Source: an uncultured Bacteroidota bacterium (GTDB lineage Bacteria; Bacteroidota; Bacteroidia; Chitinophagales; Chitinophagaceae). From it: DNA of 64,000 bases. Below the pieces are notes generated by a model. That model was not told where the DNA came from. It saw only the letters and a list, made by a program, of their open reading frames with translations, and did no database searches. Both the position numbers and the translations under genes were made by a program. This document shows, in pieces, positions 237 to 30,762 of this stretch. The stretch is taken from contig CAIVEW010000073.1 in the NCBI GenBank assembly GCA_903905065.1, positions 62,001 through 126,000 on the forward strand, given 5' to 3'. Position 1 is the first letter of the stretch. Each line of letters opens with the position of its first letter.

Positions 237-725
237 CTACTGCCTTCTGCCACCCTTCACCAGCCTCAGCCCTACATGTAGTATCTCCGGCAATGGGTTG
301 ATGCGCATATTTTGTTCCAACGTTATTTCGTAGGTGCCTTTGTGATCAAACCGTATGGAATCTCCCAGGTCCACAGGCATCCGCTGCTCCCATATTTCGC
401 CCATGCCGCGGCCCAGCCATTTGCCGGTAGCTTCCGCCAGCGGCACGTTTACCCGCACTTTTTTTGCAATAGTTTCCCCGGGGCCTTTTACATACATCCA
501 TATCCACAGGTTATTGTAAGGATATGCCTGGGAATGCTGAATAAGGAAAAAAGGATGATAATTAACGGTGGTGTCTGTAATATCCACAGAGAATTTAGGA
601 CGGAAATTATAGTTCCACGCGTTTTGAGGCACGGCTTCTTCTTTCTGGTAATACGGCGCCGGCAGGCAACCCGCTAAGTAAAAAGTAAAGAGTAAAAAGT
701 AAAAAAAGCGCTGTTTACAATTCAT
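237..725 (-). CDS. gldH: gliding motility lipoprotein GldH
   Basis: A 162-residue lipoprotein of the GldH family, needed for gliding motility in Flavobacterium; members sit in the cell envelope and are linked to the type IX secretion/gliding machinery. I chose the start at 725 because it gives a clean lipoprotein signal ending in LAGC with Cys20, and because a TAnnTTTG promoter box (755-762) lies upstream of it; a start at 770 would place the promoter inside the gene. The region around YNNLWIWMYVKGPG and the GKWLGRGMGEIWE segment match the GldH pattern. The hydrophobic part of the signal peptide is encoded by four tandem 7-base repeats (678-705). Family assignment is by recognised motifs. Confidence 0.85.
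   Translation of the reverse strand: MNCKQRFFYFLLFTFYLAGCLPAPYYQKEEAVPQNAWNYNFRPKFSVDITDTTVNYHPFFLIQHSQAYPYNNLWIWMYVKGPGETIAKKVRVNVPLAEATGKWLGRGMGEIWEQRMPVDLGDSIRFDHKGTYEITLEQNMRINPLPEILHVGLRLVKGGRRQ
678..705. repeat. four-copy heptanucleotide repeat inside the gldH signal peptide
   Basis: On the plus strand the units are GTAAAAA, GTAAAGA, GTAAAAA and GTAAAAA, head to tail. On the minus strand they encode residues 7-16 of GldH. Gain or loss of one unit would shift the reading frame. Confidence 0.8.
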
Positions 726-754
726 ATTGCGAAGCAGTGATAACCTGTTAACGA

Positions 755-762
755 CAAAACTA
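755..762 (-). promoter_or_regulatory. -7 promoter box for gldH
   Basis: CAAAACTA on the plus strand reads TAGTTTTG on the minus strand, an exact match to the Bacteroidota -7 consensus TAnnTTTG. It lies about 30 bases upstream of the chosen gldH start. Confidence 0.55.
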
Positions 763-809
763 CACCACATAACTCACTTTTTGGTATTGACTTTTAACTT
801 CTTACTCAA

Positions 810-1685
810 CTACAGTATATTCAGTATCTGCTCTTTGGCTTTTTCCAGCTCATCCTTCATGTTGATCACGATCTGCTGTATCTCGGCATGGTTGGCTTTT
901 GAACCGAGGGTATTGATCTCTCTCCCGATCTCCTGTAATATAAAATTCAGTTTACGTCCTATGGCCATGTCGTTTTCATTCACAGTAGCACTAAAGTATT
1001 CGCAATGCTGCCTCAACCTGATCTTTTCTTCCGAAAAATCCATTCGCTCCAGGTAATAGATCATCTCCTGCTCAAAGCGGTTTGGGTCTATTTTTTCTTT
1101 GCCGGCCATATCCGCCAGCCATTGTGTGAGGCGGGCCCGCACCCGCTCTACTCGTTCGGCCTCCAGTGGCAGTATCTTTTCATGCAGTTGCTCTATGTTG
1201 TTTATGCGCAGCATTATATCTTTCAGCATAGCCGATCCTTCGTGAAGGCGGTGCTGCATCAGATCTTTGGCTGCTTGCTCTATTACTTTTTTTACTTCTT
1301 CCCAGTCCTTTTCGGGGAGCACATCTGTATCCGGGGCCACAACCTCAGGCATACGCATGAGTGTAGAGATGATGTTTTCCTGTGGCAGGCCGGTTTGCTC
1401 GGCTATTTGCTTCATGCCCTGGTAGTAGAACAAAGCAAGGTCGGTATTCACTACCATCGGTTTTGAGGCCCCTTCCTGCCTCACGCTCACCGTGAGGTCT
1501 ATGGTGCCGCGCTGCAGCATGTTGTTCATCAGGTTGCGTATATCCAGCTCATAGGAGCGCAGTATGGGCGGCAGCTTGGTGTTAATGTCAAACTGTTTGC
1601 CATTGAGCGCTTTTACTTCCACTACTACCTGGCGGCCATTTACCAAGGCCTCTGCCCGCCCGAAACCCGTCATTGAATACAGCAT
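810..1685 (-). CDS. yicC: YicC-family endoribonuclease
   Basis: The 291-residue product begins MLYSMTGFGRAEA, the signature of the YicC/YloC family, and has the family's usual length. The N-terminal YicC domain covers roughly residues 1-160 and the C-terminal DUF1732 domain about 205-291, containing RMDFSEEKIRLRQHC and a well kept GREINTLGSKANHAEIQQIV block. E. coli YicC is an RNase linked to small-RNA turnover; the same role here is inferred from the family. It is the gene upstream of gldH on the same strand, with the gldH promoter between them. A gene of this family often precedes gmk, which is not seen here. Confidence 0.9.
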   Translation of the reverse strand: MLYSMTGFGRAEALVNGRQVVVEVKALNGKQFDINTKLPPILRSYELDIRNLMNNMLQRGTIDLTVSVRQEGASKPMVVNTDLALFYYQGMKQIAEQTGLPQENIISTLMRMPEVVAPDTDVLPEKDWEEVKKVIEQAAKDLMQHRLHEGSAMLKDIMLRINNIEQLHEKILPLEAERVERVRARLTQWLADMAGKEKIDPNRFEQEMIYYLERMDFSEEKIRLRQHCEYFSATVNENDMAIGRKLNFILQEIGREINTLGSKANHAEIQQIVINMKDELEKAKEQILNIL

Positions 1686-1814
1686 ATCTTTTCCTTTGCT
1701 GCAAAAGAAAACAAACGTTTGGCAATAAAAAAACTTATCGCTCGTTTTTGTGCAAAATCAGTATAAAATCGTCTTAAAACTGCAACAACTGCGTAAATCA
1801 GCGTTTTTATTAGC

Positions 1815-1822
1815 TATTTTTG
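1815..1822 (+). promoter_or_regulatory. -7 promoter box for the EnvC-like gene
   Basis: TATTTTTG matches TAnnTTTG and lies 17 bases before the ATG at 1840. It predicts a very short leader. No clear -33 element is seen. Confidence 0.45.
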
Positions 1823-1839
1823 TTTTACTCTAACTGCCC

Positions 1840-3204
1840 ATGCGTGTAACCGCTTTCCTTTTATGTCTCCTTTTATCAGTAACGGCAATTGCCCAGAAGC
1901 AACTGCCGGTGCAGTACACCATGACCAAGGAGCAGTATGAGGCAGAGCGCCAGAAGATACTGGATGCGATCAATGAGACCCAGCAGCAGCTTGATGCTAT
2001 AAAAAATGACAAGAAAGCGACAATGAGCCAGTTGCGGGCTTTGCAGAATAAGCTTGCAGACCGCCAGCGGCTTATAGGAAACATCAACCAGCAACTGGAT
2101 AATATTGATAACACCATCAAAACCTCATCCACCGAGGTTGGATCGCTAAAGCAGCAGTTAGAGCGGCTGAAGATCAGGTATGCGCAGTCCATACGGTATG
2201 CGTATGAAACCCGCAGCTCTTACGATATGCTGGCGTTTCTTTTTTCTTCCAGTAGTTTTAACGACGCTATGCGCCGAATGAAATACCTGAAAAAATTCAG
2301 GGAATTCCGCAAGCAGCAGGTGGAGCAGATACGTATAACCGAAAACCAGTTGCAACATAAGATCGGTGTGCTTAACGCCGAAAAGGCGCAGAAAGATGAG
2401 CTGCTGGTCTCCCAGGTGCAGCAGAAACAAGTGCTGGTAAAGGAAACCGATGAGCAAAACAAGGTAATACAGGACCTGAAGGGAAAAGAAAGCCAATTGC
2501 TGAAAGAAATAGAAAAAAACAGGAAAACTGCCGCAAGGATAAGCAATGCTATCAATACCATGATAGAACGTGAGATCAAGAAGGCGGAGGAAGAGGAGCG
2601 GAAAAAAGCAGAATTGGCTGCGAAGGCAAATGCGCCAGCCAAACCGGCTGCCTCCACGAAACCTGCCAAACCGGGTGCACCGGAGGGGGTAACCAGTAAT
2701 GAGCCGGTTTCCCCCCGCGTGAGGGAGCCTAAGACCGAATTACAGCCACTTTTGGTTACACCTACAGATGTAGCCCTTTCCGCAAATTTTGAAGGAAATA
2801 AGGGTAAGCTATATTGGCCTGTAGAAAAAGGTTATATCTCTGGTCATTTTGGTGTGCATCCACACCCGGTGGAACACCAGGTAATGATAGACAACGACGG
2901 AATTGATATCCAGACAGCTGCGGGATCCGAGGCCCGTGCAGTGTTTGATGGCGTTGTGTTAAGCGTTTTTTCAACAGGAGATAATTCGATCGTCGTGGTG
3001 AAACATGCGAATTATTTTACCGTTTACAACAACCTGAGCAATGTGCTTGTAAAAAAAGACCAGGCTGTAAGCGTAAAACAGCCACTGGGCACTGTGGCTG
3101 AGAACGAAGAAGGGATACCTACCATAAAGTTCCAGATATGGAAAGCCGCTAAGGGCAAGTCAACAAAGCTGAATCCCGAGCAATGGATAGGCAAGGCGCG
3201 CTAG
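1840..3204 (+). CDS. EnvC-like murein hydrolase activator (coiled coil + LytM/M23)
   Basis: The 454-residue protein has a signal peptide (about residues 1-19), a long coiled coil (about 28-250, rich in Gln, Lys and Glu heptads), a Pro/Ala/Lys linker (about 258-295) and a C-terminal LytM/peptidase M23 domain (about 325-450). The zinc-binding residues of active M23 enzymes are not kept: the usual HxxxD/HxGID position reads NDGID and the HxH position reads KFQIW. This is the pattern of EnvC, which activates cell-wall amidases at the division site instead of cutting peptidoglycan itself. That role is inferred. Located in the periplasm. It has its own promoter box at 1815-1822. Confidence 0.85.
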   Translation: MRVTAFLLCLLLSVTAIAQKQLPVQYTMTKEQYEAERQKILDAINETQQQLDAIKNDKKATMSQLRALQNKLADRQRLIGNINQQLDNIDNTIKTSSTEVGSLKQQLERLKIRYAQSIRYAYETRSSYDMLAFLFSSSSFNDAMRRMKYLKKFREFRKQQVEQIRITENQLQHKIGVLNAEKAQKDELLVSQVQQKQVLVKETDEQNKVIQDLKGKESQLLKEIEKNRKTAARISNAINTMIEREIKKAEEEERKKAELAAKANAPAKPAASTKPAKPGAPEGVTSNEPVSPRVREPKTELQPLLVTPTDVALSANFEGNKGKLYWPVEKGYISGHFGVHPHPVEHQVMIDNDGIDIQTAAGSEARAVFDGVVLSVFSTGDNSIVVVKHANYFTVYNNLSNVLVKKDQAVSVKQPLGTVAENEEGIPTIKFQIWKAAKGKSTKLNPEQWIGKAR

Positions 3205-3327
3205 CCCCTCATTTCACTGAAATCCGCGCGTAGGAACAATTTCCCCTCAAAAACATTAACGCTTACTTTAGGATTTCGCGGGGCTTTTTACGCCGGAGTC
3301 CAGCTAAAATTTAGTAAATTACATTGC

Positions 3328-3343
3328 ATTTGCAACTGCAAAT
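3328..3343. promoter_or_regulatory. 16-bp palindrome upstream of nrdJ, candidate operator
   Basis: ATTTGCAACTGCAAAT is a perfect 7-2-7 inverted repeat about 170 bases before the nrdJ start. Length and symmetry fit a repressor site; it is not the classic NrdR box sequence, so the regulator is unknown. Confidence 0.4.
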
Positions 3344-3399
3344 CTATTAATCATATTAAGATAATAAATGTTTATATTAGGGGGCTTGCACTTCATCGG

Positions 3400-3408
3400 T
3401 TATCCACA
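3400..3408 (+). promoter_or_regulatory. DnaA box upstream of nrdJ
   Basis: TTATCCACA is a perfect match to the bacterial DnaA-box consensus, about 105 bases before the nrdJ start. Ribonucleotide reductase genes are controlled by DnaA in E. coli; a similar link here is inference from one 9-base match. Confidence 0.4.
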
Positions 3409-3513
3409 GGCATGTTAGTTTCTTTTGTTGTGTTTAGCCTTTTCTTTTTAATAATTTAGCTGTCCGGCATTTCAGCCGAAATCCCCAAATTTTAACGTTA
3501 AAATAATACAGTA

Positions 3514-6500
3514 ATGAGCGCCAAATCTAAAAATAAAGGTCTTTCCTTCGACCGCCACTATACCCGCGACGAAGTGAGCCCATACGACATGTTCGAGTAC
3601 GACTATCGTACATCCGTGATCCGCAATCCGAATGGCGAAAAGGTTTTCGAAATGACCAATGTGGAAGTACCAAAACACTGGTCGCAGATAGCCACTGATA
3701 TATTGGCCCAAAAGTATTTCCGCAAAGCCGGGGTGCCGCAAAAAGATGGCAGCCTGGGTCGGGAAACGTCTATAAAAGAAGTCGCGCATCGTCTTGCCCA
3801 CTGCTGGCGCACATGGGGTGAGAATTACGGCTACTTCGCTTCAAAAAAGGACGCACAGGTTTTCTACGATGAGCTGGCATACAGCATCATGGCGCAAAGC
3901 TGTGCACCAAACTCACCGCAGTGGTTCAATACCGGCCTGTTCAGCAGCTACGGCATTGATGGTAAGGCACAAGGTCACTACTATGTAGACCCAAAGACCG
4001 GTACGCTGGAGCGCTCTAAGAATGCTTACGAGCGCCCTCAGCCACATGCGTGCTTCATACTCAGTGTAGACGATGACCTGGTAAATGAAGGCGGCATCAT
4101 GGACCTGTGGGTGCGTGAGGCGCGCATTTTCAAATATGGTTCCGGCGTAGGTACTAATTACTCCAACATCCGTGCCGAGGGTGAAAAACTCAGCGGCGGC
4201 GGCACTTCCAGCGGCCTCATGAGCTTCCTCAAGATTGGCGACCGTGCTGCGGGCGCCATCAAGAGCGGTGGCACTACCCGCCGCGCGGCCAAGATGGTGT
4301 GCCTTGACCTCGACCACCCCGAAGTAATAGACTTCATAGACTGGAAGGTAGAAGAAGAAAAGAAAGTAGCCGCGTTGATAGCAGCCGGTTATGCATCTGA
4401 CTATGAAGGTGAAGCATACAAAACAGTATCCGGACAAAATTCAAATAACTCTGTTCGTGTACCAAATGAGTTTTTCCACGCCCTTGATAACAATGCAGAT
4501 TGGGAAATGACCGCCCGCAGCACCGGCAAGGTAATGAAGACCATTGCTGCCAAAGAATTGTGGGAGAAGATCTCCTATTCAGCATGGCGCTGCGCTGATC
4601 CCGGGACGCAATACGATACCACCATTAACGAATGGCATACCTGCCCCGAGGGCGGAAGGATACGTGCTTCCAATCCTTGCTCGGAGTACATGTTCCTTGA
4701 TAATACAGCATGCAACCTGGCTTCACTCAACCTCCGTCGTTTCTTCGACGAGGAAACCGGAATCTTCGATGTACCCGGCTTTGAATACATGACCCGCCTG
4801 TGGACGGTGGTGCTGGAAGTATCTGTACTTATGGCGCAGTTCCCATCGCCGGAAGTAGCCCAATTGAGCTATGACTACCGCACCCTTGGTTTAGGTTACG
4901 CTAACCTCGGCTCCATGCTGATGGTAAGTGGTATAGCGTATGACAGCGAAGAAGCCCGTGGCATTGCTGGTGCGATCACCGCCATTATGAACGGTGTTGC
5001 GTACAAGACATCGGCTGAAATGGCTGCCAGCCTTGGTGCGTTCCCCCGCTACCAGGAAAATAAAGAACACATGATGCGTGTAATGCGCAACCACCGCGCA
5101 GCGGCTTATGATGCTGCTGATGCGTTTGAAGGAATAGAGATCAAGCCAGTAGGCATTAATGCAAAATACTGCCCCGACTACCTGCTGAAAGCGGCTACCC
5201 GCGCGTGGGACGACGCCGTACAGATGGGTGAGCTGCACGGCTACCGCAATGCACAGGCTACGGTTATAGCCCCTACAGGCACCATTGGCCTGGTAATGGA
5301 TTGTGATACTACTGGTGTTGAGCCTGATTTCGCACTCGTGAAATTCAAGAAGCTCTCCGGCGGCGGCTACTTTAAGATCATCAACCAGTCGATCCCGGCA
5401 GCACTTAAGAAGCTGGGCTACACTCCTGAGCAGCAGGATGCTATTGTGAAATATGCCAAGGGCCATGGCTCTTTTGCCGGTGCGCCCTTCATCAATCACC
5501 AGAGCCTGAGCGAGAAAGGATTTATCGCTGAAGAACTGAAGAAGCTGGATACTTCGGTAGAGAGTGCTTTTGAAATAGGTTTTGTGTTCAATCACTACAA
5601 CCTTGGTGAGGAGTGCTTACAGCGCCTGGGCTTCAAGCCGGAGCAATACTTCGCGCCAGACTTTAACCTGCTCGAGTCACTCGGGTTCTCTGATGCCGAG
5701 ATAGATGCAGCCAATGACTACGCCTGCGGCACCATGACTGTGGAAGGCGCCCCATTCCTGAAAGATGAGCACCTCTCCGTATTCGACTGCGCTAACAAGT
5801 GCGGTAAGAAAGGCGAGCGCTTCATACATGCTCACGGCCACATCCGTATGATGGGTGCTGTGCAGCCATTTATCAGCGGTGCTATCTCCAAGACCATCAA
5901 CCTGCCAAACGAGGCAACTATCGATGAGATAAAAGACTGCTACTACCTGAGCTGGAAGCTGGGCCTGAAAGCCTGTGCGCTTTACCGCGATGGTTCTAAG
6001 CTGAGCCAGCCGCTGAGCAACAAGAGCGACAAAAAAGAAAAGAAAACAGAAGCCGCAGCCGAGCCGGAAATAAGCCAGATCATAGACATGAGCAAGCTGA
6101 CAGTAGGCGAACTGCTGGAAGAAGTGAACAGGCGCGTACAGGCCAGCCCGGATACGCAACTGAAGCGCGAACTGAGCCGCATTGTGGAGCGCAAGCAACT
6201 GCCCGCCAAACGTCGTGGCTATACTATAAAGGGTAAGGTAGGCGGCCAGGCGCTGTTCCTGCGTACCGGTGAGTATGGCGATGGTACATTGGGCGAGATA
6301 TTCATAGATATGGCCAAGGAGGGCGCTACTATGCGGAGCCTGCTTAATAGCTTTGCCATAGCTATTTCGGTAGGCCTGCAATACGGTGTGCCACTGGAGG
6401 AATATGTAGACAAGTTCGCATTCTCCCGCTTCGAGCCATCAGGCATTGTAGACCATCCGAATATCAAGAATGCCACTTCAGTGCTCGATTATATCTTCCG

Positions 6501-6828
6501 CTTACTGGCTTATGAATACCTCGACCGCGACGACCTGGTACACGTACCCGATCCAAACCGCGTGACGCACCAGCAGGAAATGGAAGCCATACAGCAGGAA
6601 CTGTCGCAGGTGCGGGTTACGGCGCCACAATCGCAGCAGGCGCAGAAACCAAAACCAACATTAGCGCCAACACCGGTTGGTGTGAACGCACAAAACAGCC
6701 TGGAACTGAAAAAACTAATGGGCACCAGCGCTGATGCCCCTGTTTGCCGCAACTGCGGCAACATTACCCTCCGCAACGGCACCTGCTACATGTGCCCCAA
6801 TTGCGGAACAACCACTGGCTGTAGTTAA
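3514..6828 (+). CDS. nrdJ: adenosylcobalamin-dependent (class II) ribonucleotide reductase
   Basis: The 1104-residue enzyme makes deoxyribonucleotides for DNA synthesis in the cytoplasm, using vitamin B12 to form the active-site thiyl radical. Family landmarks are NSPQWFNTG (about residue 132), the catalytic NPCSE motif (about 386-390), APTGTIG (about 587) and a C-terminal Cys-rich tail with CRNCGN, CYMCPNCG and a final GCS, which regenerates the active-site disulphide. An acidic/Lys linker precedes the C-terminal TSCPD-like region around residues 890-1000. It is a long bacterial NrdJ type. The upstream region has a palindrome and a DnaA box; two terminator-like hairpins follow. No class I nrdAB genes are in the window. 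Confidence 0.95.
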   Translation: MSAKSKNKGLSFDRHYTRDEVSPYDMFEYDYRTSVIRNPNGEKVFEMTNVEVPKHWSQIATDILAQKYFRKAGVPQKDGSLGRETSIKEVAHRLAHCWRTWGENYGYFASKKDAQVFYDELAYSIMAQSCAPNSPQWFNTGLFSSYGIDGKAQGHYYVDPKTGTLERSKNAYERPQPHACFILSVDDDLVNEGGIMDLWVREARIFKYGSGVGTNYSNIRAEGEKLSGGGTSSGLMSFLKIGDRAAGAIKSGGTTRRAAKMVCLDLDHPEVIDFIDWKVEEEKKVAALIAAGYASDYEGEAYKTVSGQNSNNSVRVPNEFFHALDNNADWEMTARSTGKVMKTIAAKELWEKISYSAWRCADPGTQYDTTINEWHTCPEGGRIRASNPCSEYMFLDNTACNLASLNLRRFFDEETGIFDVPGFEYMTRLWTVVLEVSVLMAQFPSPEVAQLSYDYRTLGLGYANLGSMLMVSGIAYDSEEARGIAGAITAIMNGVAYKTSAEMAASLGAFPRYQENKEHMMRVMRNHRAAAYDAADAFEGIEIKPVGINAKYCPDYLLKAATRAWDDAVQMGELHGYRNAQATVIAPTGTIGLVMDCDTTGVEPDFALVKFKKLSGGGYFKIINQSIPAALKKLGYTPEQQDAIVKYAKGHGSFAGAPFINHQSLSEKGFIAEELKKLDTSVESAFEIGFVFNHYNLGEECLQRLGFKPEQYFAPDFNLLESLGFSDAEIDAANDYACGTMTVEGAPFLKDEHLSVFDCANKCGKKGERFIHAHGHIRMMGAVQPFISGAISKTINLPNEATIDEIKDCYYLSWKLGLKACALYRDGSKLSQPLSNKSDKKEKKTEAAAEPEISQIIDMSKLTVGELLEEVNRRVQASPDTQLKRELSRIVERKQLPAKRRGYTIKGKVGGQALFLRTGEYGDGTLGEIFIDMAKEGATMRSLLNSFAIAISVGLQYGVPLEEYVDKFAFSRFEPSGIVDHPNIKNATSVLDYIFRLLAYEYLDRDDLVHVPDPNRVTHQQEMEAIQQELSQVRVTAPQSQQAQKPKPTLAPTPVGVNAQNSLELKKLMGTSADAPVCRNCGNITLRNGTCYMCPNCGTTTGCS

Positions 6829-6862
6829 AGTATAAACTATAGAATGTTTATTTAGACATTAA

Positions 6863-7002
6863 ACAGCAAAAGAACCGTCAGCCCCCTGATGGTTTTTTTG
6901 TTTTGTAAAGAAACCGAATGCATAATCTAATCAATTTAAAGAGCAAAAGAACCCTGCCCCCTGACGGTTTTTTTGTTTTCGGGAGCGGAGGAAACCGAAG
7001 GT
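6863..7002 (+). repeat. tandem duplication of the terminator segment
   Basis: Two copies of a segment beginning agcaaaagaacc, passing through a CCCCCTGAyGGTTTTTTTG core and ending gaaaccgaa lie side by side. In the second copy the left arm has lost bases, so its hairpin is much weaker. Confidence 0.6.
6874..6899 (+). terminator. intrinsic terminator of nrdJ
   Basis: ACCGTCAG and CTGATGGT pair (one G-T) around a CCCC loop, followed by seven T. A second, degraded copy of the same segment lies at about 6944-6976. Confidence 0.8.
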
Positions 7003-7019
7003 ATAAAATTATTATTTCT

Positions 7020-7027
7020 TAGTTTTG
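7020..7027 (+). promoter_or_regulatory. -7 promoter box of the toxin-antitoxin operon
   Basis: TAGTTTTG matches TAnnTTTG exactly and lies five bases before the antitoxin ATG at 7032, so the transcript is probably leaderless or nearly so. Confidence 0.45.
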
Positions 7028-7031
7028 TGAA

Positions 7032-7256
7032 ATGACATTGATAAAACTTCATATGCCCGATGATCTGGCAGATAAGGTTAGACGCGTTACAAGTAATGCG
7101 GAAACCTACATTATCGATTTGCTTCGTTCTAAGCTAACGGATATAGATAAGCCAAAATCATTGGCGGATGAATATCGCATGGCAGGTACTGAAAATGCCA
7201 GGTTATTAAGTGACTTTACTCACACAGACCTGGAGGGGTGGGACGATGAATATTAA
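7032..7256 (+). CDS. MazE-type antitoxin
   Basis: A 74-residue acidic protein directly upstream of a MazF/PemK toxin and overlapping it by 11 bases, which is the usual antitoxin-first order. The N-terminal part (MTLIKLHMPDDLADKVRRV) looks like a ribbon-helix-helix-type DNA-binding segment; the acidic C-terminal tail ending LEGWDDEY would bind and block the toxin. The assignment rests mostly on the neighbour and size. It probably represses its own promoter at 7020-7027. Confidence 0.75.
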   Translation: MTLIKLHMPDDLADKVRRVTSNAETYIIDLLRSKLTDIDKPKSLADEYRMAGTENARLLSDFTHTDLEGWDDEY

Positions 7257-7587
7257 GCGAGGGTCTGTTTGGTTGGCTAATCTGGATCCTACGGTAGGTA
7301 GCGAGATACGTAAGACTCGACCAGTTGTCGTAATATCTAATGATGTAAATAATGCGAACAATAATGTAGTCACCGTCTTGCCAATAACTTCCAATACAAC
7401 TCATGTCTTTTCTTTCGAAGTATTATTACCCAAGGGAATAGGCGGTCTTCCTAAGGATTCCAAAGCAAAAGCTGATCAAATTCGCACATTGGATAAAAGC
7501 AGGTTGATCAAATCAATAGGTACATTACCTGAAAGCTATATCGTATTGGTTGACGAAGCAATTAAGTTACACCTAGCTCTGAAATGA
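7246..7587 (+). CDS. MazF/PemK-family endoribonuclease toxin
   Basis: The 113-residue protein has the MazF/PemK signature: an N-terminal RGSVWLANLDPTVGSE, then KTRPVVVISND and a KADQIRTLDKSRL segment. Family members cut mRNA at short sequences and stop growth when the antitoxin is degraded. I chose the ATG at 7246, inside the 3' end of the antitoxin gene, because it starts just before the conserved IKRG segment and has a purine-rich tggagggg stretch about six bases upstream; an earlier in-frame start at 7210 has no family similarity. Confidence 0.88.
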   Translation: MNIKRGSVWLANLDPTVGSEIRKTRPVVVISNDVNNANNNVVTVLPITSNTTHVFSFEVLLPKGIGGLPKDSKAKADQIRTLDKSRLIKSIGTLPESYIVLVDEAIKLHLALK

Positions 7588-7621
7588 GTGAGTTAGGGGC
7601 TGAATTCGATATCCGCGATAC

Positions 7622-8176
7622 TCAGGGAATTGGCCTTACCAATGAATAAACCGCCGAATCCAGAAACTTCCCGTTATAGAAATAATTCTCTTTAAAGTAT
7701 CCTTCCCTAATGAATCCATTCCTTTCCAGCAACCTTATGGATTCCTTGTTTCCCGGATTTGTATTGGCTTCTACTGAGTGTAGGTTCATGACATTGAAAC
7801 CATAGTCAAGCACAGAGTGTAACGCTTCATTCATTATCCCTTTTCCGTGGTGCGCCGGGTGCAGCCTGTAGCCTATTTCTGCACGATAGTTCGGGCTGTC
7901 CATTCTCCAGAAACATATATCGCCAATGATCTTAGGTTCACCTTTCAGCGTGATCGCCCAGTTAATGGATTCATTATTGGCAATCGCAGTATTTATCATT
8001 TGTATGAATGCCACGGCCTCATCAACCGACTGTGCGGGAGCCCGGTCCAGGTATTTCATTACCCGCTCGTTTGATCTTAGGAAGAACATTTCATCGGCAT
8101 CGGTTTTATCCAATTGCCGCAGCACCAGTCGGTCTGTGGTTAATGTGGGGAAGGGATTAAAGTTTAGCTCAAGCAT
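7622..8176 (-). CDS. GNAT-family N-acetyltransferase (RimJ/RimL-like)
   Basis: The 184-residue protein has the GNAT fold pattern of the RimJ/RimL group: TDRLVLRQLDKTDADEMF at the start, an acceptor-site region with GDICFWRMDSPNYRAEIGY, the acetyl-CoA loop HPAHHGKGIMNEAL and the closing SIRLLERNGFIREG. It transfers an acetyl group from acetyl-CoA to an amino group; the substrate (protein N-terminus, small molecule or antibiotic) cannot be told from the sequence. It is a single gene, convergent with the mazEF-like pair. Confidence 0.88.
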   Translation of the reverse strand: MLELNFNPFPTLTTDRLVLRQLDKTDADEMFFLRSNERVMKYLDRAPAQSVDEAVAFIQMINTAIANNESINWAITLKGEPKIIGDICFWRMDSPNYRAEIGYRLHPAHHGKGIMNEALHSVLDYGFNVMNLHSVEANTNPGNKESIRLLERNGFIREGYFKENYFYNGKFLDSAVYSLVRPIP

Positions 8177-8329
8177 TCCGTTCTTGTTTCGGTAAAAATA
8201 CTTTTTCCGCTTTAATTAATAAGGGAGGGCAACCGCTGGCGTATGCACAATTTTCGGCCTGCTTTAACACCGCAAAAACACGATAGCTAAAATGTTTTTA
8301 TTATTCTTGCATCACAAAATGAGTGATTT

Positions 8330-9238
8330 ATGAAACTAAAACTTACACTACTACTCTCCATTGTATTGCTGCCACTCTTTTCGTTTGCACAGAGCAGCAT
8401 TACTATTTTCTCCGAGGATGGAGATAAATTCTACCTGATGCTGAACGGGCAGAAGCAAAACGATGTGCCACAGACCAACATACGGGTTGATGGCCTCACC
8501 CAGCCGTTTTACAAGGCAAAAATCGTTTTCGAAGATAAAGCTAAAGGAGACATTGATAAAAGCATTCCGGTAAATGATCCGGCGACCAATGCAAATGCGG
8601 ATGTTGTCTATAAGATCAAGAATAAAGATGGGGACATGAAACTTCGCTACTTTTCTTCACAACCCGTGCAACCTAACTACACACCGCCTGCTGATGTTTA
8701 CGTAATGCACTACGGACAGCCAGCGCCGGCAGCTAACACAGTTACGCAAACCACTGTCACCACGACCCAGGTAAACCCAAATACTTCCATAAATGTGAAC
8801 GCTGGTGGTGTAAACATGAGTGTAAATATGCCCGATGCAAATATGACCACCACGCAGACAACGGTGACAAGAAGCACGACTACTACTACATCAACGGATA
8901 ATGGTTATAGCCAGGAGCAAGCGTCACAACCCGCCGGCTGCCAGTACCCTATGGATTTTGGCAGCTTTAAATCGGCCAAAGAATCAGTAGAAAAAGCTAG
9001 TTTTGAGGATACAAAACTCTCTACCGCAAAAGCGATACTTGGCGGCAATTGCGTTTCCGCTGAGCAGGTAATGCAGATCTGCAAGCTCTTTTCGTTTGAA
9101 GCGTCCAAACTCAATTTTGCGAAATTTGCATACAGTAAAACAACCGACAAAGGAAACTATTTTAAGGTCAACAACGTATTCGATTTTGATGCCAGCAAGA
9201 CCGAACTGAACAATTTTGTGAGCAACGGAGGAAGATAG
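8330..9238 (+). CDS. secreted DUF4476-domain protein
   Basis: The 302-residue protein has a signal peptide (about 1-20, ending SFAQS), an N-terminal beta-rich part (about 21-120), a very Thr/Asn/Val-rich middle (about 130-195 with runs such as TTQTTVTRSTTTTT) and a C-terminal DUF4476 domain (about 205-298). DUF4476 occurs in many Bacteroidota secreted proteins and has no known function. Expected location is periplasm or cell surface. A strong terminator follows at 9266. Confidence 0.8.
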   Translation: MKLKLTLLLSIVLLPLFSFAQSSITIFSEDGDKFYLMLNGQKQNDVPQTNIRVDGLTQPFYKAKIVFEDKAKGDIDKSIPVNDPATNANADVVYKIKNKDGDMKLRYFSSQPVQPNYTPPADVYVMHYGQPAPAANTVTQTTVTTTQVNPNTSINVNAGGVNMSVNMPDANMTTTQTTVTRSTTTTTSTDNGYSQEQASQPAGCQYPMDFGSFKSAKESVEKASFEDTKLSTAKAILGGNCVSAEQVMQICKLFSFEASKLNFAKFAYSKTTDKGNYFKVNNVFDFDASKTELNNFVSNGGR

Positions 9239-9265
9239 CAGTTTACTACGTTTTTTGTTTTTCAT

Positions 9266-9295
9266 TGCCCCCGCCATTCGGGGGCATTGTTTTTA
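9266..9295 (+). terminator. intrinsic terminator after the DUF4476 gene
   Basis: TGCCCCCG and CGGGGGCA form a perfect 8-bp stem around CCATT, followed by TTGTTTTTA. Confidence 0.85.
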
Positions 9296-9415
9296 CACGA
9301 TCATTGTAATATGAAATTAGGATTATATTAAGGTTTATATTTTAACCTTTGTCTGATCTTATAGTCTTAACTTTTCCGGCATGGGATTGCAGTACAATTA
9401 AAAAAATATCCGTAT

Positions 9416-10696
9416 TTGAAATTAGCAAAACAGTTTGCTGCAATTTTTTTGTGCATCCTGCCCGCATTGCGGAGCACCGCGCAAGAGAATCATGCTATCC
9501 CGATATTACCCCCCCGTGATTCCTGTGGTAACGATAGCTTTTGCGTAAAACGGAACTACAAAAATGAACTTGATTTTAAGGACCTGGCCGGAGATCTGTG
9601 GCACGATATGACCGGCAGAAAAGTGGCGAAACGTATAGATACTGGTGAAGTGATTAATACGAAAGTCCGTATCTCCGCAGTGCCGGCTGCAGGTTATTCC
9701 TTGGCTACCGGACTCGCCGGGCTTGTTGCGGCGAATGCTACTTTTCGTACTAACGTGGATGCGAATACCTCTACGATGGTAACCAGCTTTACCTATACGG
9801 TCCGTAACCAGATCATACTGCCACTGATCACCAGCATCTGGACCGGCGATAACAAATACAATATTGTTACCGACTGGCGCTATGTAAAATTCCCCTCCTA
9901 CACTTACGGCCTTGGTGGCTATACTACCATCAGTGACGGCTACCTGATCGATTATTCAGCAATACGCCTGCATTCTACACTGCTCCGGATGATAAGGCCC
10001 CATATGTATGCTGGCGTAGGCTACAACATGGACTATTTCTATGACATAGAAGAAATAAACCCGCCAGCCGGAAAAATAACGGATTTCGAAAGGTACGAGC
10101 TGAGTAAAATTGTAAACAAAACAGAATTCTCGTCGGGCATCACTTTCAATTATTTGTATGATGACCGGTCCAACCCGCTGAACCCGGAAAAAGGGAATTT
10201 CGTCAATGTGATCTACCGTACCAATATAGTTTCTCTGGGTAACAATTATAGCTGGCGCTCGCTCGTGGTAGATGCACGCAAGTATATTCCATTCCCGTCC
10301 AACTCTGAAAATGTCCTTGCTTTCTGGACCTATGATTGGTTCACCGTTACCGGCCAGGCCCCCTACCTGATGATGCCCAACACCGGGGGCGATCCGTACA
10401 GCAATACTGGCCGTGGCTACATCCTCGGCAGATTCAGGGGAAACAATATGGTGTATGCAGAAGGGGAATACCGCTTCGGGATCACGAATAACGGGCTGAT
10501 AGGGGGCGTAGTATTTGCCAACGCCGAGTCGATGACGGAGGAGACTTCGGGCCGATTTGAAACTATAGCGCCCGGTTGGGGCGCCGGCATAAGGCTTAAG
10601 CTGGATAAATTTTCCCGTACCAATGTAGCGCTTGATTATGGTTTTGGCCTCAATGGTTCCGGCGGGCTATTTGTGAATATCGGAGAGGTGTTTTAG
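9416..10696 (+). CDS. BamA/TamA-family outer-membrane beta-barrel protein
   Basis: The 426-residue protein has a signal peptide (about 1-22, ending STAQ) and a C-terminal barrel of the surface-antigen (D15/BamA/TamA) type: YLYDDRSNPLNPEKGNF is the typical start of the repeated strands and it ends in a Phe (GEVF), as barrels often do. There are no POTRA repeats, so it is a short member, likely an outer-membrane transporter or assembly factor; substrate unknown. The start is a TTG at 9416: no in-frame ATG precedes the signal peptide. It is convergent with mutL. Confidence 0.8.
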   Translation: MKLAKQFAAIFLCILPALRSTAQENHAIPILPPRDSCGNDSFCVKRNYKNELDFKDLAGDLWHDMTGRKVAKRIDTGEVINTKVRISAVPAAGYSLATGLAGLVAANATFRTNVDANTSTMVTSFTYTVRNQIILPLITSIWTGDNKYNIVTDWRYVKFPSYTYGLGGYTTISDGYLIDYSAIRLHSTLLRMIRPHMYAGVGYNMDYFYDIEEINPPAGKITDFERYELSKIVNKTEFSSGITFNYLYDDRSNPLNPEKGNFVNVIYRTNIVSLGNNYSWRSLVVDARKYIPFPSNSENVLAFWTYDWFTVTGQAPYLMMPNTGGDPYSNTGRGYILGRFRGNNMVYAEGEYRFGITNNGLIGGVVFANAESMTEETSGRFETIAPGWGAGIRLKLDKFSRTNVALDYGFGLNGSGGLFVNIGEVF

Positions 10697-10737
10697 AAAG
10701 GCGAGGGTTGTATGATACAGGCATTTTCAAATTCTCA

Positions 10738-10761
10738 AACCTGCCTGCCGGTAGACAGGTT
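10738..10761. repeat. 24-bp imperfect palindrome at the mutL 3' end
   Basis: AACCTGCCTGCC is followed by GGTAGACAGGTT, a 12-12 inverted repeat with two mismatches that allow G-U pairing. It lies between the convergent barrel gene and mutL and touches the mutL stop codon; it may end transcription from both sides. It resembles CCTGCC-type repeats common in Bacteroidota. Confidence 0.5.
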
Positions 10762-12616
10762 ATCCAAGCATTCCTTCCAGTTCTTCCTTCCTGATGATCA
10801 CAAATACTCTTTTACCATCCGGGGTGTACTCCGGTTGGGAACAGGCAAACAGCTCATCTATAAGGCCTTGCTGGCCTTCAGGCTGCAGGATGGCGTGTTT
10901 GTTACGGCTGAGGCGTCGGGCCATATGGGTCAGCAGCATTTCCGTACGCTTGTTTACGGCATCTGGTGATTCATGTTTCAGGTGATCTATTACTTCATCC
11001 AGCACATTTCTCTCTTCGCCATCCGGTAGGCTGCCCGGTACCCCCTGCATGGCAAAAGTGTTTTTTCCAAAGGGAGCTATATCAAAGCCTATCCGGGCGA
11101 GATCTGGCAGCACGCCAGTGAGCAATATCGCATCCTGCGGGCTGGTCTCATAAGAAATAGGGAACAATACTTGCTGCGATGGTGTGTTGTCGCTATTCCA
11201 TTCGGCCAGCAGCCGCTCATACCATATACGCTCCTGTGCCCGGCGGATGTGGATCATCATCAGCCCGCTTTTCACGGTGGTAGCCAGCATATTACCATGT
11301 AGCAGCATCATACCATTGCTGCTTTTACCATCAGTTTCGGTACCTGTGAGCAAGCTAGCCTGGCTGGCGAAATCGTCTTCCTGCCCAACTGCCGACTTCA
11401 AATTGCTCGGTGCCAGTTGTTGTGGTGTCTTAGCTATTTCATAAAGTTCTTTCCAGCGCTTCAGGCTGTCTTTACGCTCTATAATATGTGCCTGATCTTT
11501 ATCACTGAAAGCACTGTACAGATAACCTTTTTGTGTTTCCTGCTTTTGGGTCTCGGTATAGGGCAATTGCACTGACGGAAGGTGCTGTATCTCCGGGTTA
11601 AGCGTAAAATCCAATGACGGGGCAATATTGTATCGCGCCAGGGAATGCTTTACAGCACTGTTCAGGTAAGAGTACATCATGCGGTCGTCCTCAAACTTCA
11701 CTTCCTGCTTCGTGGGGTGAACGTTTACATCCACCCGGGCTGGGTCCACCTCCAGGAACAGTACATAGAACGGAAAGGCGTCTTTTTCTATCAGGCCTTC
11801 ATAGGCCTGCACTACAGCATGGTTCAGATAGGCATTGCGTATAAAGCGGCCGTTGATGAAGAAGAACTGCATGCCCCGTGTGCGGGTAGCCGCCGCCGGC
11901 TTACCTATAAAGCCGTATATATTCAGGATGTCCGTCTTCTCGGTTACCGGTACCAGGTTCTTTTCATAGGAACTGCCCAACAAAGCCACTACACGTTCCT
12001 TCATATTTCCCCGTTCCAGGTGGAACTGCTCGGTGCCATTATTCCAAAACCGGAAGCCAATACCCGGATTGGCCAACGCGATACGGGTGAATTCGTCAAG
12101 TATGTGCCGTAACTCAGTGCTGGCGCTTTTCAGGAAGTGCCGCCGCGCGGGCACATTGTAAAAAAGGTTTTTTACACTGATGGTGGTACCGGGGTTTACA
12201 GCACATGGCTCCTGCACCTTTACTTCGGTGCCCTCTATCACTATGCGGCTGCCCACATCGCTGGCAGCCAGGCGGGTCTTGAGTTCCACCTGGGTCACCG
12301 CAGCTATAGATGCCAGCGCCTCGCCCCTGAAACCCATGGTGCGTATCTTGAACAGGTCCTCTATGTTACGTATCTTGGAGGTTGCGTGCCGCTCAAAGCT
12401 CATACGGGCATCTGTGGGGCTCATGCCCTTACCATTGTCCGTTACTTGTATTAATTCTTTACCGGCATCCTTTACGATCAGTAGTATCTCGGTAGCTCCC
12501 GCATCTATAGCATTTTCCAACAGCTCCTTCACAGCCGAGGCCGGGCGTTGGATCACCTCGCCGGCAGCTATCTGGTTGGCTATATGGTCTGATAATAATT
12601 GAATTACATCCGGCAC
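10760..12616 (-). CDS. mutL: DNA mismatch repair protein MutL
   Basis: The 618-residue protein couples mismatch recognition by MutS to strand removal. The N-terminal GHKL ATPase is complete: ENAIDAGA (about 33-40), the VTDNGKGM box and TMGFRGEALASI, followed by the S5-fold domain to about residue 330. The middle linker is variable and the C-terminal dimerisation domain begins near 430. The endonuclease motif DQHAxxE expected in organisms without MutH is altered: the aligned stretch (about 450-465) reads HIRRAQERIWYER. Whether nicking activity is kept is open. It is a single gene on the minus strand. Confidence 0.93.
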   Translation of the reverse strand: MPDVIQLLSDHIANQIAAGEVIQRPASAVKELLENAIDAGATEILLIVKDAGKELIQVTDNGKGMSPTDARMSFERHATSKIRNIEDLFKIRTMGFRGEALASIAAVTQVELKTRLAASDVGSRIVIEGTEVKVQEPCAVNPGTTISVKNLFYNVPARRHFLKSASTELRHILDEFTRIALANPGIGFRFWNNGTEQFHLERGNMKERVVALLGSSYEKNLVPVTEKTDILNIYGFIGKPAAATRTRGMQFFFINGRFIRNAYLNHAVVQAYEGLIEKDAFPFYVLFLEVDPARVDVNVHPTKQEVKFEDDRMMYSYLNSAVKHSLARYNIAPSLDFTLNPEIQHLPSVQLPYTETQKQETQKGYLYSAFSDKDQAHIIERKDSLKRWKELYEIAKTPQQLAPSNLKSAVGQEDDFASQASLLTGTETDGKSSNGMMLLHGNMLATTVKSGLMMIHIRRAQERIWYERLLAEWNSDNTPSQQVLFPISYETSPQDAILLTGVLPDLARIGFDIAPFGKNTFAMQGVPGSLPDGEERNVLDEVIDHLKHESPDAVNKRTEMLLTHMARRLSRNKHAILQPEGQQGLIDELFACSQPEYTPDGKRVFVIIRKEELEGMLG

Positions 12617-27880: not shown

Positions 27881-28141
27881 CTAAAATCTTTCTGCCATCC
27901 CCAGTCCAAAAAGGGCATAGTCATATACAGCGGGGTCTCCGGGATTCATCAATTTCAGTTGCTGCGTAAGCAGGCGCGCATTGGCCCAGTTCGATTTTAT
28001 GTTGTCCAGCAAGCCCAGGCGCTCCGCTACCCGCGCCACATGCACATCAAGAGGGCATATAAGCTGAGCAGGTTTTATCTTTTTCCATATCCCGAAATCG
28101 ACTCCATTACCATCCTTACGAACCATCCACCGTAGGTACAT
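27881..28141 (-). pseudogene. C-terminal half of the interrupted TIGR02757/DUF2400 gene
   Basis: This 86-residue frame (MYLRWMVRKDGNGVDFG onwards) continues exactly where the frame at 30244-30762 ends (RINM), and both match consecutive parts of the intact copy at 28219-29019 (KINMYLRWLVR). It contains CPLDVHVARVAERLGLL and ends YDYALFGLGMAERF. Together the two halves would make a normal protein of about 258 residues. The halves are separated by an AT-rich insertion of about 2.1 kb. The family has an HhH-glycosylase-like look (PLDVH block), but its function is unknown. Confidence 0.9.
28137..28141. other. left boundary repeat TACAT of the insertion
   Basis: TACAT occurs here and again at 30245-30249, at the two break points of the interrupted gene; it may be a 5-bp target-site duplication or the recombination core. 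Inside it an imperfect terminal inverted repeat with GGTAATTG (28151-28158) faces CAATTACC (30231-30238). Confidence 0.6.
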
Positions 28142-28205
28142 GTAGATTCAGGTAATTGTAGTAGTATGTATTTGGTTAGAAAGGTGAGAAGAGGAACTAT
28201 AAACT

Positions 28206-28213
28206 TACTTTTG
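28206..28213 (+). promoter_or_regulatory. -7 promoter box of the element-borne gene
   Basis: TACTTTTG is an exact TAnnTTTG match six bases before the ATG at 28219, so the inserted gene brings its own promoter and a nearly leaderless transcript. Confidence 0.5.
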
Positions 28214-28218
28214 TAAAA

Positions 28219-29019
28219 ATGGAAGTTAAGCATAACTATATTGATGAGGAAATTATAGATTTTCTGAACGAGAAGGTGGATCAATACAATAGACCAAATT
28301 TTATTGAGAATGATCCCATTTCAATTCCGCATAGATATAGCTTAAAAGAAGACATTGAAATTTCAGGATTCTTAGCAGCCTCAATATCCTGGGGCAATCG
28401 GAAAATGATAGTTAAGAATGGTCATAAAATGCTTGATCTACTTGGTGAATCTCCTTTTGACTATGTTATGTCGCATGATGCAAAACAATTAAAAAGACTT
28501 AATGGTTTTGTTCATCGAACTTTTAATCAGGAGGACTTTAAATTCTTCATCAAGGCTCTTAAACATCTGTATCAAGTTCATGGAGGATTAGAAGCAGTAT
28601 TTAATAAATATGCAACTGGGGAAAGCCTTCAACCAGCTATTCATCAATTTAAAAAAGTCTTCTTTGAGATTCCACATTCTCAAAGAACTACAAAACACAT
28701 TTCTGACCCGTTTAAAGGCTCGGCAGCAAAGAAAATCAACATGTACCTTAGATGGCTTGTTAGGGTCGATAATCGTGGCGTGGACTTTGGATTGTGGCGA
28801 AAAATTAAACCATCACAATTATCGTGTCCGTTGGATGTTCACTCTGGTAATATTGCTCGGAAATTAGGATTACTAACAAGAAAACAAAATGATTCAAAAG
28901 CGGTTGCTGAGTTGGATAGCAATCTTCGTATATTGGATGCAAGCGATCCAGTTAAATATGATTTTGCTCTTTTCGGGTTTGGTATAATGAGTACACCGAT
29001 TGAGAAGAAGCTAATTTAA
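28219..29019 (+). CDS. intact TIGR02757/DUF2400 family protein carried by the insertion
   Basis: The 266-residue product covers the whole family: DEEIIDFLNEKVDQYNRP at the start, DIEISGFLAASISWGNR, KKINMYLRWLVRVDNRGVDFGLW and CPLDVHSGNIARKLGLL, ending YDFALFGFG. It aligns end to end with the two native halves that flank it but differs at many positions, so it is a divergent homologue and not a recent duplicate. It lies on the opposite strand to the broken gene. It probably replaces the lost function. The family is uncharacterised; the PLDVH region resembles the catalytic part of HhH-type DNA glycosylases, which is inference. Confidence 0.88.
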   Translation: MEVKHNYIDEEIIDFLNEKVDQYNRPNFIENDPISIPHRYSLKEDIEISGFLAASISWGNRKMIVKNGHKMLDLLGESPFDYVMSHDAKQLKRLNGFVHRTFNQEDFKFFIKALKHLYQVHGGLEAVFNKYATGESLQPAIHQFKKVFFEIPHSQRTTKHISDPFKGSAAKKINMYLRWLVRVDNRGVDFGLWRKIKPSQLSCPLDVHSGNIARKLGLLTRKQNDSKAVAELDSNLRILDASDPVKYDFALFGFGIMSTPIEKKLI

Positions 29020-29056
29020 AGTCTTAATTACAATTTACCTCAAATACCATCTAAAT

Positions 29057-29154
29057 AAATTGCATAAATAAATATGTATTGGTTGTCGCATATTTATTGA
29101 TGCCATTTGTGTTGTCTGGCTTAGGTTTCAATGGTTTAGTAATTTATGCAATTT
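29057..29154. repeat. nested inverted repeats inside the insertion
   Basis: AAATTGCATAAAT (29057-29069) and ATTTATGCAATTT (29142-29154) form a perfect 13-bp outer pair. Partly overlapping the left arm, ATAAATATG (29068-29076) pairs with CATATTTAT (29089-29097). The stretch is non-coding and lies just before the winged-helix gene; it could be a resolution site, an origin or an operator. Confidence 0.6.
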
Positions 29155-29200
29155 GTTTCTATCAATTTTTTTTATTAATTTTTTAAAAATAAGATAAAAA

Positions 29201-29605
29201 ATGAAATGCACAAAGACAAAATGGAACCAGCTAACTACCAGCGGTGCTTATCGGGTAATCAATCTATCACTCTATAATCACATAAGAGATTTACATGCCA
29301 CATTAATGATTGAAGAATTAATTGATATGTACTATTACCAACATGGTAATAAAAAATTGATAGATGACTATATCTACTATACTGATAAAAGTATGGGAGA
29401 TAAGATTTTAGTATCTGCGAATAAGGTTGGAGATCTAAGGAATATATTATTAAACCATAATTATGTTAGTTACATAAGGAAGGGTAATCCATGTAAGGGT
29501 CATTATAAAATTAACTTTGATCAAATAGAGAGGGACATAAAAACTAACCTTAGTTTATCTAAAACAAAAAATGAAGATCAAAATAAGTCAGAAGCAGTCC
29601 AATGA
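29201..29605 (+). CDS. winged-helix replication-initiator-like protein
   Basis: The 134-residue basic protein has a C-terminal half typical of the winged-helix proteins of phages and conjugative elements: a recognition-helix region (ILVSANKVGDLRNILLNHNYVSYI) followed by a wing with RKGNPCKGHYKIN, as in replication proteins that end in a KGxPxxxYYxIN pattern. The N-terminal part (LYNHIRDLHATLMIEELIDMYY) is helical. Function is inferred to be DNA binding or replication control for the element. It is preceded by a structured AT-rich stretch. Confidence 0.55.
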   Translation: MKCTKTKWNQLTTSGAYRVINLSLYNHIRDLHATLMIEELIDMYYYQHGNKKLIDDYIYYTDKSMGDKILVSANKVGDLRNILLNHNYVSYIRKGNPCKGHYKINFDQIERDIKTNLSLSKTKNEDQNKSEAVQ

Positions 29606-29888
29606 AAGCCCTTGTATTAGCTTATTTCATGGCATTTTAATTCTTTTACTATGTTTATCAGCTTCGGTATAATATTATCAGGATCCCTACCAGGATCCCT
29701 TTTAATATATTGTGAAAATTTGTATAGATATAAGAAAAAATTCATTCGGACTATAGATGCCTGTTTTATATGTTAATATATAATTAATATATAAAGAAGC
29801 GGATACTGTGTTTGACTATTTTAAACAGATAACTTTTCTTGCCTGGAAACGGGGTAGGCGGGTTCCCGATCAAAGACAAATAATGAAG
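29606..29888. other. AT-rich non-coding part of the insertion
   Basis: No gene is seen. It has two direct copies of AGGATCCCT (about 29680-29702) and long A/T runs. Confidence 0.4.
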
Positions 29889-30170
29889 TTAAGCCGTAGC
29901 TATTTTTAAGTCATTCTTGAATGCCAGCTTCTTTATCTTGGTTACCGTATTAACATGCACTTTAGCAGCAGCAGCAGCATCTTTACAGGTTAAATCCTTC
30001 TTCAATAGTTCTATAACCTTTTTGTTCTGGGGCTTGCTCAAGAAGGTAAGAGTATCTTCTTTATTACCAGGCTTACGCCCTTTATACAAACCCTTAAGCT
30101 TCGCAATCCTAATCCCGTCAACTTGTCTTTCCTTAGATATATTTCTCTCCATTTCACCGAGCGTTCCACA
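29889..30170 (-). pseudogene. C-terminal remnant of a serine recombinase (resolvase)
   Basis: The frame reads TLGEMERNISKERQVDGIR and then IAKLKGLYKGRKPG, the end of the catalytic-domain E-helix and the start of the DNA-binding arm of resolvases, followed by an HTH (LTCKDAAAAAKVHVNTVTKI). A TAA stop lies just upstream of the first codon shown and the N-terminal catalytic part with its serine, about 120 residues, is missing. An ATG at 30152 could still give an 87-residue DNA-binding fragment. The right end of the insertion lies only about 75 bases away, so the gene was probably cut when the element lost its right part. Confidence 0.75.
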
Positions 30171-30243
30171 TTATCAGCCCATAATTAAGATTGAAAAGAA
30201 TGAGGTGTACTTGTTCGATTAATGCCACATCAATTACCCGCAT

Positions 30244-30762
30244 TTACATATTGATGCGCTTACATGCTGACCCGCGGGCCGGCGTGGATATATGTTTCTT
30301 TGTTCGTTCCGGGTGCTCAATAGAAAAGAAATAGTTGTGAAAATGTATCAGCGCCTGCTCCACGGTTTCTTCTTTGTATGTTTTGGCGGGCACAAAAGCA
30401 TCCTCCAACGAATAATAGCGCATGTAGTGATATTGCAGGAACGATATGAAGTACAGCAGGTCAGTGGCATTAAACGTGCGGTGCGCAAAATGTACGAAAG
30501 GTTTGAGGTCAGTATCCTTGTGATTCACTATAAAATCATGAGGGGCATTACCCATCCAGTCCATCAGTTTCCGGGAGTTGTTGATGATAGTAGTGCGGTT
30601 ACCCCATGCCAGTATTGCCGCAAAGAGGCCGGCTATTTCTATATCCTGCTTTTTTGTGAAAAGATGTGGCATACATACCGGGTCTTTTTCAATAAATGCC
30701 GGCTGGTTATATAGTTTCACCTTATCATCGAGAAATTCTTTCAACTCTGGCATCAACTCCAA
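30244..30762 (-). pseudogene. N-terminal part of the interrupted TIGR02757/DUF2400 gene
   Basis: The 172-residue frame starts MELMPELKEFLDDKVKLY and ends GSACKRINM followed at once by a TAA created at the insertion border. It matches residues 1-175 of the intact copy (DIEIAGLFAAILAWGNR, FAHRTFNATDLLYF, RTKKHIS). The rest of the protein is found at 27881-28141. Its start overlaps the end of the gene at 30753-31085 by ten bases, so it was once translated together with it. A truncated product could still be made. Confidence 0.9.

Follow-up and report, generated by a model that had tools for sequence, protein, structure and literature searches.

Why would a conserved gene be cut in two, without the loss of a single residue, by an insert that itself carries an intact version of the same gene? 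This question is raised by the DNA analyzed here, a stretch of 64,000 nucleotides (hereafter, the window) from the genome of an uncultured Chitinophagaceae bacterium (G000), in which a native minus-strand gene of the TIGR02757/DUF2400 family is cut between the codons for INM and YLRW by a 2.1-kb insert. We consider it highly probable (roughly 90%) that such inserts are elements of a large serine recombinase (LSR), which target the Met codon of TIGR02757 genes and carry a replacement gene that would supply the function destroyed by insertion, the window copy being a remnant of such an element. The function would thus probably have been kept by the host after insertion.

The broken gene and its insert

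The N-terminal half of the native gene (30244..30762, minus strand) ends in frame with ...KRINM followed by TAA and corresponds to positions 1-145 of the Pfam DUF2400 profile, while the C-terminal half (27881..28141, minus strand) begins with M-YLRW and corresponds to positions 145-224. When the window flanks are rejoined, they read ...ATCAATATGTACCTACGGTGG..., with zero residues lost. The empty site is found in a genome of the same genus (G001, locus L029), where an uninterrupted TIGR02757 gene lies at the equivalent polA locus and the gene order is that of the window, namely polA (98.6% identity over the part available), the g110 gene (78%), TIGR02757 and a PAS kinase gene (91% over the part available). 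The site itself is ATCAATATGTACCTGCGGTGG, and G001 reads through ATCAATATGTACCTGCGG, which, base changes aside, is the junction rebuilt from the window flanks. An earlier note on this DNA, made from the letters alone, had read the split as exact and its cause as an insertion, with an uninterrupted relative to be sought beside polA; the split is indeed exact, and G001 is such a relative.

From core to core, the insert (28140..30247) comprises about 2.1 kb between two AT dinucleotides, with a GC content of 0.330, as compared to 0.464 for the whole window; only 0.1% of sliding 2.1-kb windows are equally AT-rich. The end adjoining the C-half (28140..28171, AT core at 28140-28141) is a palindromic half-site, and a matching half-site forms the end adjoining the N-half (30218..30249, AT core at 30248-30249). 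Inside the first of these ends lie a -7-like promoter box of the form TAnnTTTG (TACTTTTG, 28206..28213, plus strand) and the intact replacement gene (28219..29019, plus strand), which encodes 266 amino acids, covers positions 1-224 of the DUF2400 profile and shares 45% identity with the native protein. The full-length, divergent, opposite-strand homologue with its own -7 box in an AT-rich insert, as described in the earlier note, is therefore real. A whole-genome search of G000 found TIGR02757 pieces in the N-half, the C-half and the inner gene only.

At the other end, adjoining the N-half, the last 17 codons and the stop of an LSR gene are preserved (30169..30222, plus strand; HYQPIIKIEKNEVYLFD and stop). 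DNA resembling that of the element in G004, another genome of the genus, is kept at both ends of the insert, these 17 codons included, while the remaining LSR gene is gone. Judged by its sequence, the insert is a decayed remnant of an LSR integrative element and, as the LSR gene is mostly lost, the window copy is probably fixed in place, with the TIGR02757 gene being retained.

Two further features lie between the replacement gene and the LSR remnant. A 134-amino acid open reading frame (ORF; 29201..29605, plus strand), considered as element cargo, has no Pfam or NCBIfam match up to an E value of 0.1. A C-terminal fragment resembling the Mpi family of small serine recombinases (29889..30152, minus strand) is found at the expected position of the LSR gene; its match to NF009949 is weak (E 0.0021, 17.8 bits against a cut-off of 272) and covers model positions 122-193 of 203.

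A family of eight elements

Including the window, eight elements were found, each inserted at the identical codon and bearing, close within one of its ends, an intact and divergent TIGR02757 gene. The hosts are four genomes of the window's genus (G000, G004, G006 and G033), G145, G431 (Lacinutrix venerupis DSM 28755), G432 (Salegentibacter flavus DSM 17794) and G774. The N-half and the intact replacement are found in all eight, and the C-half is available in seven (all except G033). As the arrangement recurs in seven further genomes, chance or assembly error is very unlikely, and the search proposed in the earlier note, for other TIGR02757 genes split at the same codon around a second copy, speaks for its insertion model.

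The way in which these elements were found should be considered when referring to their numbers. The first search, of 60 genomes, yielded a TIGR02757 match in 57 (the window's own included) and the same split in G004, G006 and G033, with inner copies 90-94% identical to that of the window. Within the genus, 35 genomes (G000 to G034) were searched; four contain an element, and one, G025, is without any TIGR02757 match. Among 396 genomes drawn from the window's order, 376 had a match (G000 included) and G145 presented the split with an inner copy. G431 and G432 were picked out by a script among 80 loci kept of 587 and were then confirmed in their genomes; in the order of G431, a match was found in 245 of 395 genomes (G431 included), with the split and replacement in G431 and G774. 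Second or partial matches in fifteen more genomes (G138, G151, G213, G308, G041, G047, G057, G156, G196, G097, G444, G467, G749, G807 and G822) were left out of the count, as they resemble complete duplicates, frameshifts, contig ends or fragments without an explanation. Nor were 14 foreign-type single copies in other genomes included, none of them being directly preceded by an element end; in four of these, motifs occur 0.6-0.7 kb upstream, and at L073 and L101 the upstream sequence available comprises only 58 and 216 bases, respectively. In the five with neighbours listed, the adjacent ORFs look like ordinary host genes.

An LSR gene or its remnant is located at the end opposite the replacement gene in seven of the eight elements, the contig of G033 stopping short. 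The gene is complete in G004, G145 and G431, contains two in-frame stops in G774 and is cut by the contig start in G432, while G006 retains the C-terminal 94 residues and the window 17. The complete LSR of G004 (603 amino acids) presents Resolvase, Recombinase and zinc-ribbon domains and is 51% identical to that of G431 and 41% identical to that of G145; the LSR of G432 is 34% identical to that of G431 over the part available. These proteins do not reach the curated score of the Ccr recombinases of staphylococcal cassette chromosomes (SCC), the best of three LSRs attaining 67.4 bits for CcrB against a cut-off of 900. Where the element lies on a single contig (22 kb in G145, 24 kb in G431 and 38 kb in G774), the order is N-half, replacement gene, cargo, LSR gene and C-half. 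The cargo of G774 (L231-L232) includes BrxA, BrxB, BrxC, PglX, PglZ and BrxL, which together we take to be a type I bacteriophage exclusion (BREX) set, and that of G431 includes type III restriction and modification genes and a helicase.

Attachment site and orientation

The target of the element is the Met codon in the conserved INM-[YF]LRW stretch of TIGR02757 genes. The attachment site of the element (attP) was rebuilt from both ends in seven elements, G033, with no C-half, being left out. In attP, 18-25 of 30 pairs are palindromic, as compared to a shuffle mean of 9.2-10.0, and the best of 13 palindrome centres is the AT of the Met codon in all seven. The host site (attB) is far less symmetric, with 7-12 of 20 pairs, and clearly exceeds shuffles only in G145 and G006. 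The LSR would cut at the AT dinucleotide of ATG; this dinucleotide being self-complementary and attP being palindromic, the element could enter either way round.

With a palindromic attP and core, insertion either way round is to be expected and is indeed observed: the replacement gene adjoins the N-half in G006, G033, G145, G431, G432 and G774 and the C-half in G000 and G004. In a decayed case, G173, the LSR fragment adjoins the N-half, as in the group of G000 and G004.

Putative promoter, ancestry and selection of the replacement gene

In all eight elements, no other gene separates the replacement from one element end, the junction lying about 55-82 bp away. Within this spacer, a TAnnTTTG box, the Bacteroidota -7 motif, precedes the replacement start in seven of the eight, as compared to 0.58 when the spacer bases are shuffled. 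The foreign gene would be expressed from its own promoter and would supply the function destroyed by integration. As to that function, the TIGR02757 protein is probably DNA-glycosylase-like by fold, the HhH-GPD superfamily, with its EndoIII/MutY-like fold, being the candidate; a search by sequence found no solved structure for it up to an E value of 5.

Identity between the replacement and the native protein of the same genome is 45-47% in the window's genus and G145 (46% for the N-half alone in G033) and 64-70% in G431, G432 and G774. A tree of 99 proteins, G774 not being among them, was quickly built, with support by the Shimodaira-Hasegawa-like approximate likelihood ratio test (SH-aLRT) only. 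In the window's genus and in G145, the native halves cluster there with single copies of the host lineage (those of the window and G004 with G001), while all inner copies fall inside a flavobacterial-type clade. The comparison of trees proposed in the earlier note thus shows, for the window's genus and G145, outer halves that follow their hosts, which the inner copies do not. G431 and G432 themselves belong to the Flavobacteriaceae, and the native gene there was recognized by its being split. On the starred branches of the tree, the inner label must have changed three times or more, gains and losses not being told apart, which suggests that the replacement gene was captured several times.

For the inner genes of G000, G004, G006 and G033, the synonymous divergence (dS) is 0.17-0.64, while that of the native N-halves of these genomes is 2.1 or saturated; for the native C-halves, dS is 0.93 between G000 and G004 and saturated in the other two pairs. 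As the inner dS is far lower than the native, the element moved between species after the hosts had diverged. The ratio of nonsynonymous to synonymous divergence (dN/dS) of the inner genes, at 0.08-0.14, reflects purifying selection, so that in the window's genus the replacement is maintained at the protein level. An unusual GIMST... tail (28980-29019 in the window) is common to the inner copies of G000, G004 and G006; G033 keeps the usual GLG-like F tail.

A flavobacterial-type TIGR02757 gene is also found in several Bacteroidota outside the Flavobacteriaceae (L148-L154 and L083), with no element ends directly adjoining it. In the seven genomes searched, this copy is the sole TIGR02757 gene found, and xenologous displacement is possible.

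Related recombinases at comM and decayed elements

An LSR search of 395 genomes at E 1e-80 yielded four, namely G431 (part of the query alignment), G774, G547 and G809. In the last two, the LSR adjoins a broken comM, a Mg-chelatase-like competence gene (L235 of G547, 6674-9525; L234 of G809, 401-12487); both comM halves are available in G809, where the element spans about 10.5 kb. Whole-genome searches of G547 and G809 with the comM N-half found no second comM copy, only matches of 20% and 23% identity, and the stretches available contain no TIGR02757 copy. As these cousins are without a replacement, carrying one goes with the TIGR02757 target, on a small sample. In a phylum-wide draw of 395 genomes, an LSR profile gave no match at E 1e-80, which shows little, as the draw included none of the genomes known to match. 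A similar LSR adjoins comM in an IMG/VR viral contig (L213, 8910-11236).

In G361 (L186, 6623-12656), an intact TIGR02757 gene is found and, 5 kb from it, a displaced C-half that lies behind element-end-like sequence; the DNA between the two contains transposase-like ORFs. This is perhaps a later, recombined stage of the element.

Weighing the explanations

Several observations weigh against a self-compensating element and should be considered. Apart from the window, six elements came to light through queries with the replacement protein, and only G774 through the LSR search, so that the carriage of a replacement by eight of eight is partly ascertained. G145 lacks a TAnnTTTG box, the native copies of G431 and G432, like the inner copy of G432, have no firm place within the flavobacterial clade of the tree, and the comM control consists of two genomes with related LSRs. 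The outer halves are still without signs of decay. Lastly, G173 (L187, 3796-4680) contains the N-half, an LSR remnant and the last 27 residues, and G189 (L189, 7345-8590) a C-half behind an LSR-type element end, with no intact TIGR02757 gene found in either genome (rated 99% and 96% complete, respectively). The TIGR02757 gene can therefore be lost and is not strictly required there. That disruption would carry no fitness cost, as the earlier note proposed, is an inference, and these two genomes keep a broken gene with element remnants and no intact copy found.

Could the inner copy be ordinary cargo, independent of the target, given that DNA-repair-like genes travel on mobile DNA anyway? TIGR02757 homologues do occur in 15 phage and 5 plasmid records, all with less than 60% identity, and in the four phage records examined (L217-L220) the homologue lies among phage genes, with no integrase annotated within 6 kb. 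A phage or plasmid origin was rejected; two scans of viral contigs yielded one contig with TIGR02757 and three with an LSR, and in none was TIGR02757 beside an LSR. Ordinary cargo would not be expected to occupy the same first position inside one end in every element, nor to show the repeated changes of inner label in the tree, with gains and losses pooled, nor to be missing from the comM cousins in the stretches available, which lack a comM copy as well. We thus regard this explanation as quite unlikely. As a separate observation, the Bacteroides and Parabacteroides phage homologues are annotated as N-glycosylase/DNA lyase in two of the four records, which suggests that phages use a TIGR02757-type enzyme. 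A better case, if still a doubtful one, can be made for the replacement acting mainly as a lock, whereby the native halves mutate and the host comes to depend on the element copy and cannot lose the element. The window element, which lost its LSR yet keeps an intact TIGR02757 gene, and the purifying selection on inner copies fit this idea. The native halves in the window and G004, however, remain open frames whose dN/dS, where computable, is low, so that excision would still restore the native gene, and the intact copy was lost in G173 and G189.

The earlier note had offered recombination at INMYLRW as its alternative, i.e., that the split arose when a foreign gene entered the cell and underwent homologous recombination with the chromosome, and the inner and outer window copies do share ATGTACCT at the split point. 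This leaves unexplained the LSR genes and remnants, the palindromic ends that share one central dinucleotide in seven elements and the two orientations, as well as inserts of 2 to 38 kb that contain a separate, complete gene and no chimera. Being contradicted by the elements of G431, G145 and G774, it was rejected as very improbable. Transposition by a DDE enzyme with a 5-bp target duplication would account for the ATGTA on both sides of the window insert, yet the shared stretch varies among elements and is accounted for by attP/attB identity around the core, a single codon is hit in eight genomes, and the enzyme at the end, where available, is an LSR and not a DDE transposase. With variable shared stretches, palindromic attachment half-sites as ends and one fixed target, this explanation, too, was rejected and has next to no probability. 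An LSR element bearing a substitute for its own target therefore remains our preferred explanation.

Relation to known systems

Islands that restore their target gene have been described, both for dusA (PMC4482086) and in a general statement (PMC12884075), and tRNA and tmRNA islands restore their targets as well, those in tRNA genes using tyrosine integrases (PMC4383910). As far as the accessible parts of these papers go, the likeness lies in site-specific insertion into a conserved gene for which island sequence compensates (PMC4482086, PMC12884075); such islands, however, supply one gene end that is fused to the host remainder, while the TIGR02757 element carries a complete, divergent and separate gene. 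No island segment completing the host gene in frame was found here, both TIGR02757 host halves staying partial. Serine-recombinase integrative and mobilizable or conjugative elements (IMEs/ICEs) inside rumA, maff2, snf2 and traG share a serine integrase, intragenic insertion and a very short core (PMC5704250, PMC5357655), but in the accessible text are described as disrupting genes, host-dispensable ones in PMC5704250, with no replacement mentioned. Catalogued LSR elements (PMC10083194) likewise share the LSR, attL/attR, predicted attB and clusters of target genes, and the enrichment of DNA competence genes among LSR targets reported there fits the comM cousins; the portion of that paper available to us mentions no replacement gene, and its main text has no words beginning with Bacteroid-. 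The Streptococcus pyogenes chromosomal island SpyCI also targets a DNA-repair gene, mutL, and a promoter inside a decayed element rescues that gene (PMC3430984), but it is a growth-dependent mutator switch at the mutL 5' end, for which the available part of the source reports no second gene copy.

In the openly licensed literature, as far as titles and the starts of abstracts go, no element with a complete, divergent replacement of its own target was found, and of 5.39 million such papers, none contains the name TIGR02757 and one the name DUF2400. While target-end restoration by islands is already known, the replacement of a whole gene by an element appears, from these comparisons, to be new.

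Implications

We lean towards considering self-compensating integration, repeated capture and xenologous displacement included, as a distinct strategy of mobile elements. Recombinase lineages may specialize on one conserved gene that is costly to lose and may, time and again, take up a divergent version of it that has a promoter of its own. The divergence of the replacement would prevent recombination or fusion with the broken copy and so permit mid-gene insertion in either orientation and, after the recombinase decays, the foreign gene may stay, leading to xenologous displacement of core genes.

The family thus appears to solve the cost of insertion with a whole substitute gene, unlike intragenic LSR elements that, in the accessible part of PMC5704250, are described as hitting dispensable genes. 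It offers a testable route for the replacement of core genes by foreign versions, as well as an attP/attB pair predicted to function in both orientations, attP and the core being palindromic. It also provides an argument that the uncharacterized TIGR02757 gene is costly to lose and makes of this gene a landing site for defence cargo, such as BREX and type III restriction-modification, in the Bacteroidota.

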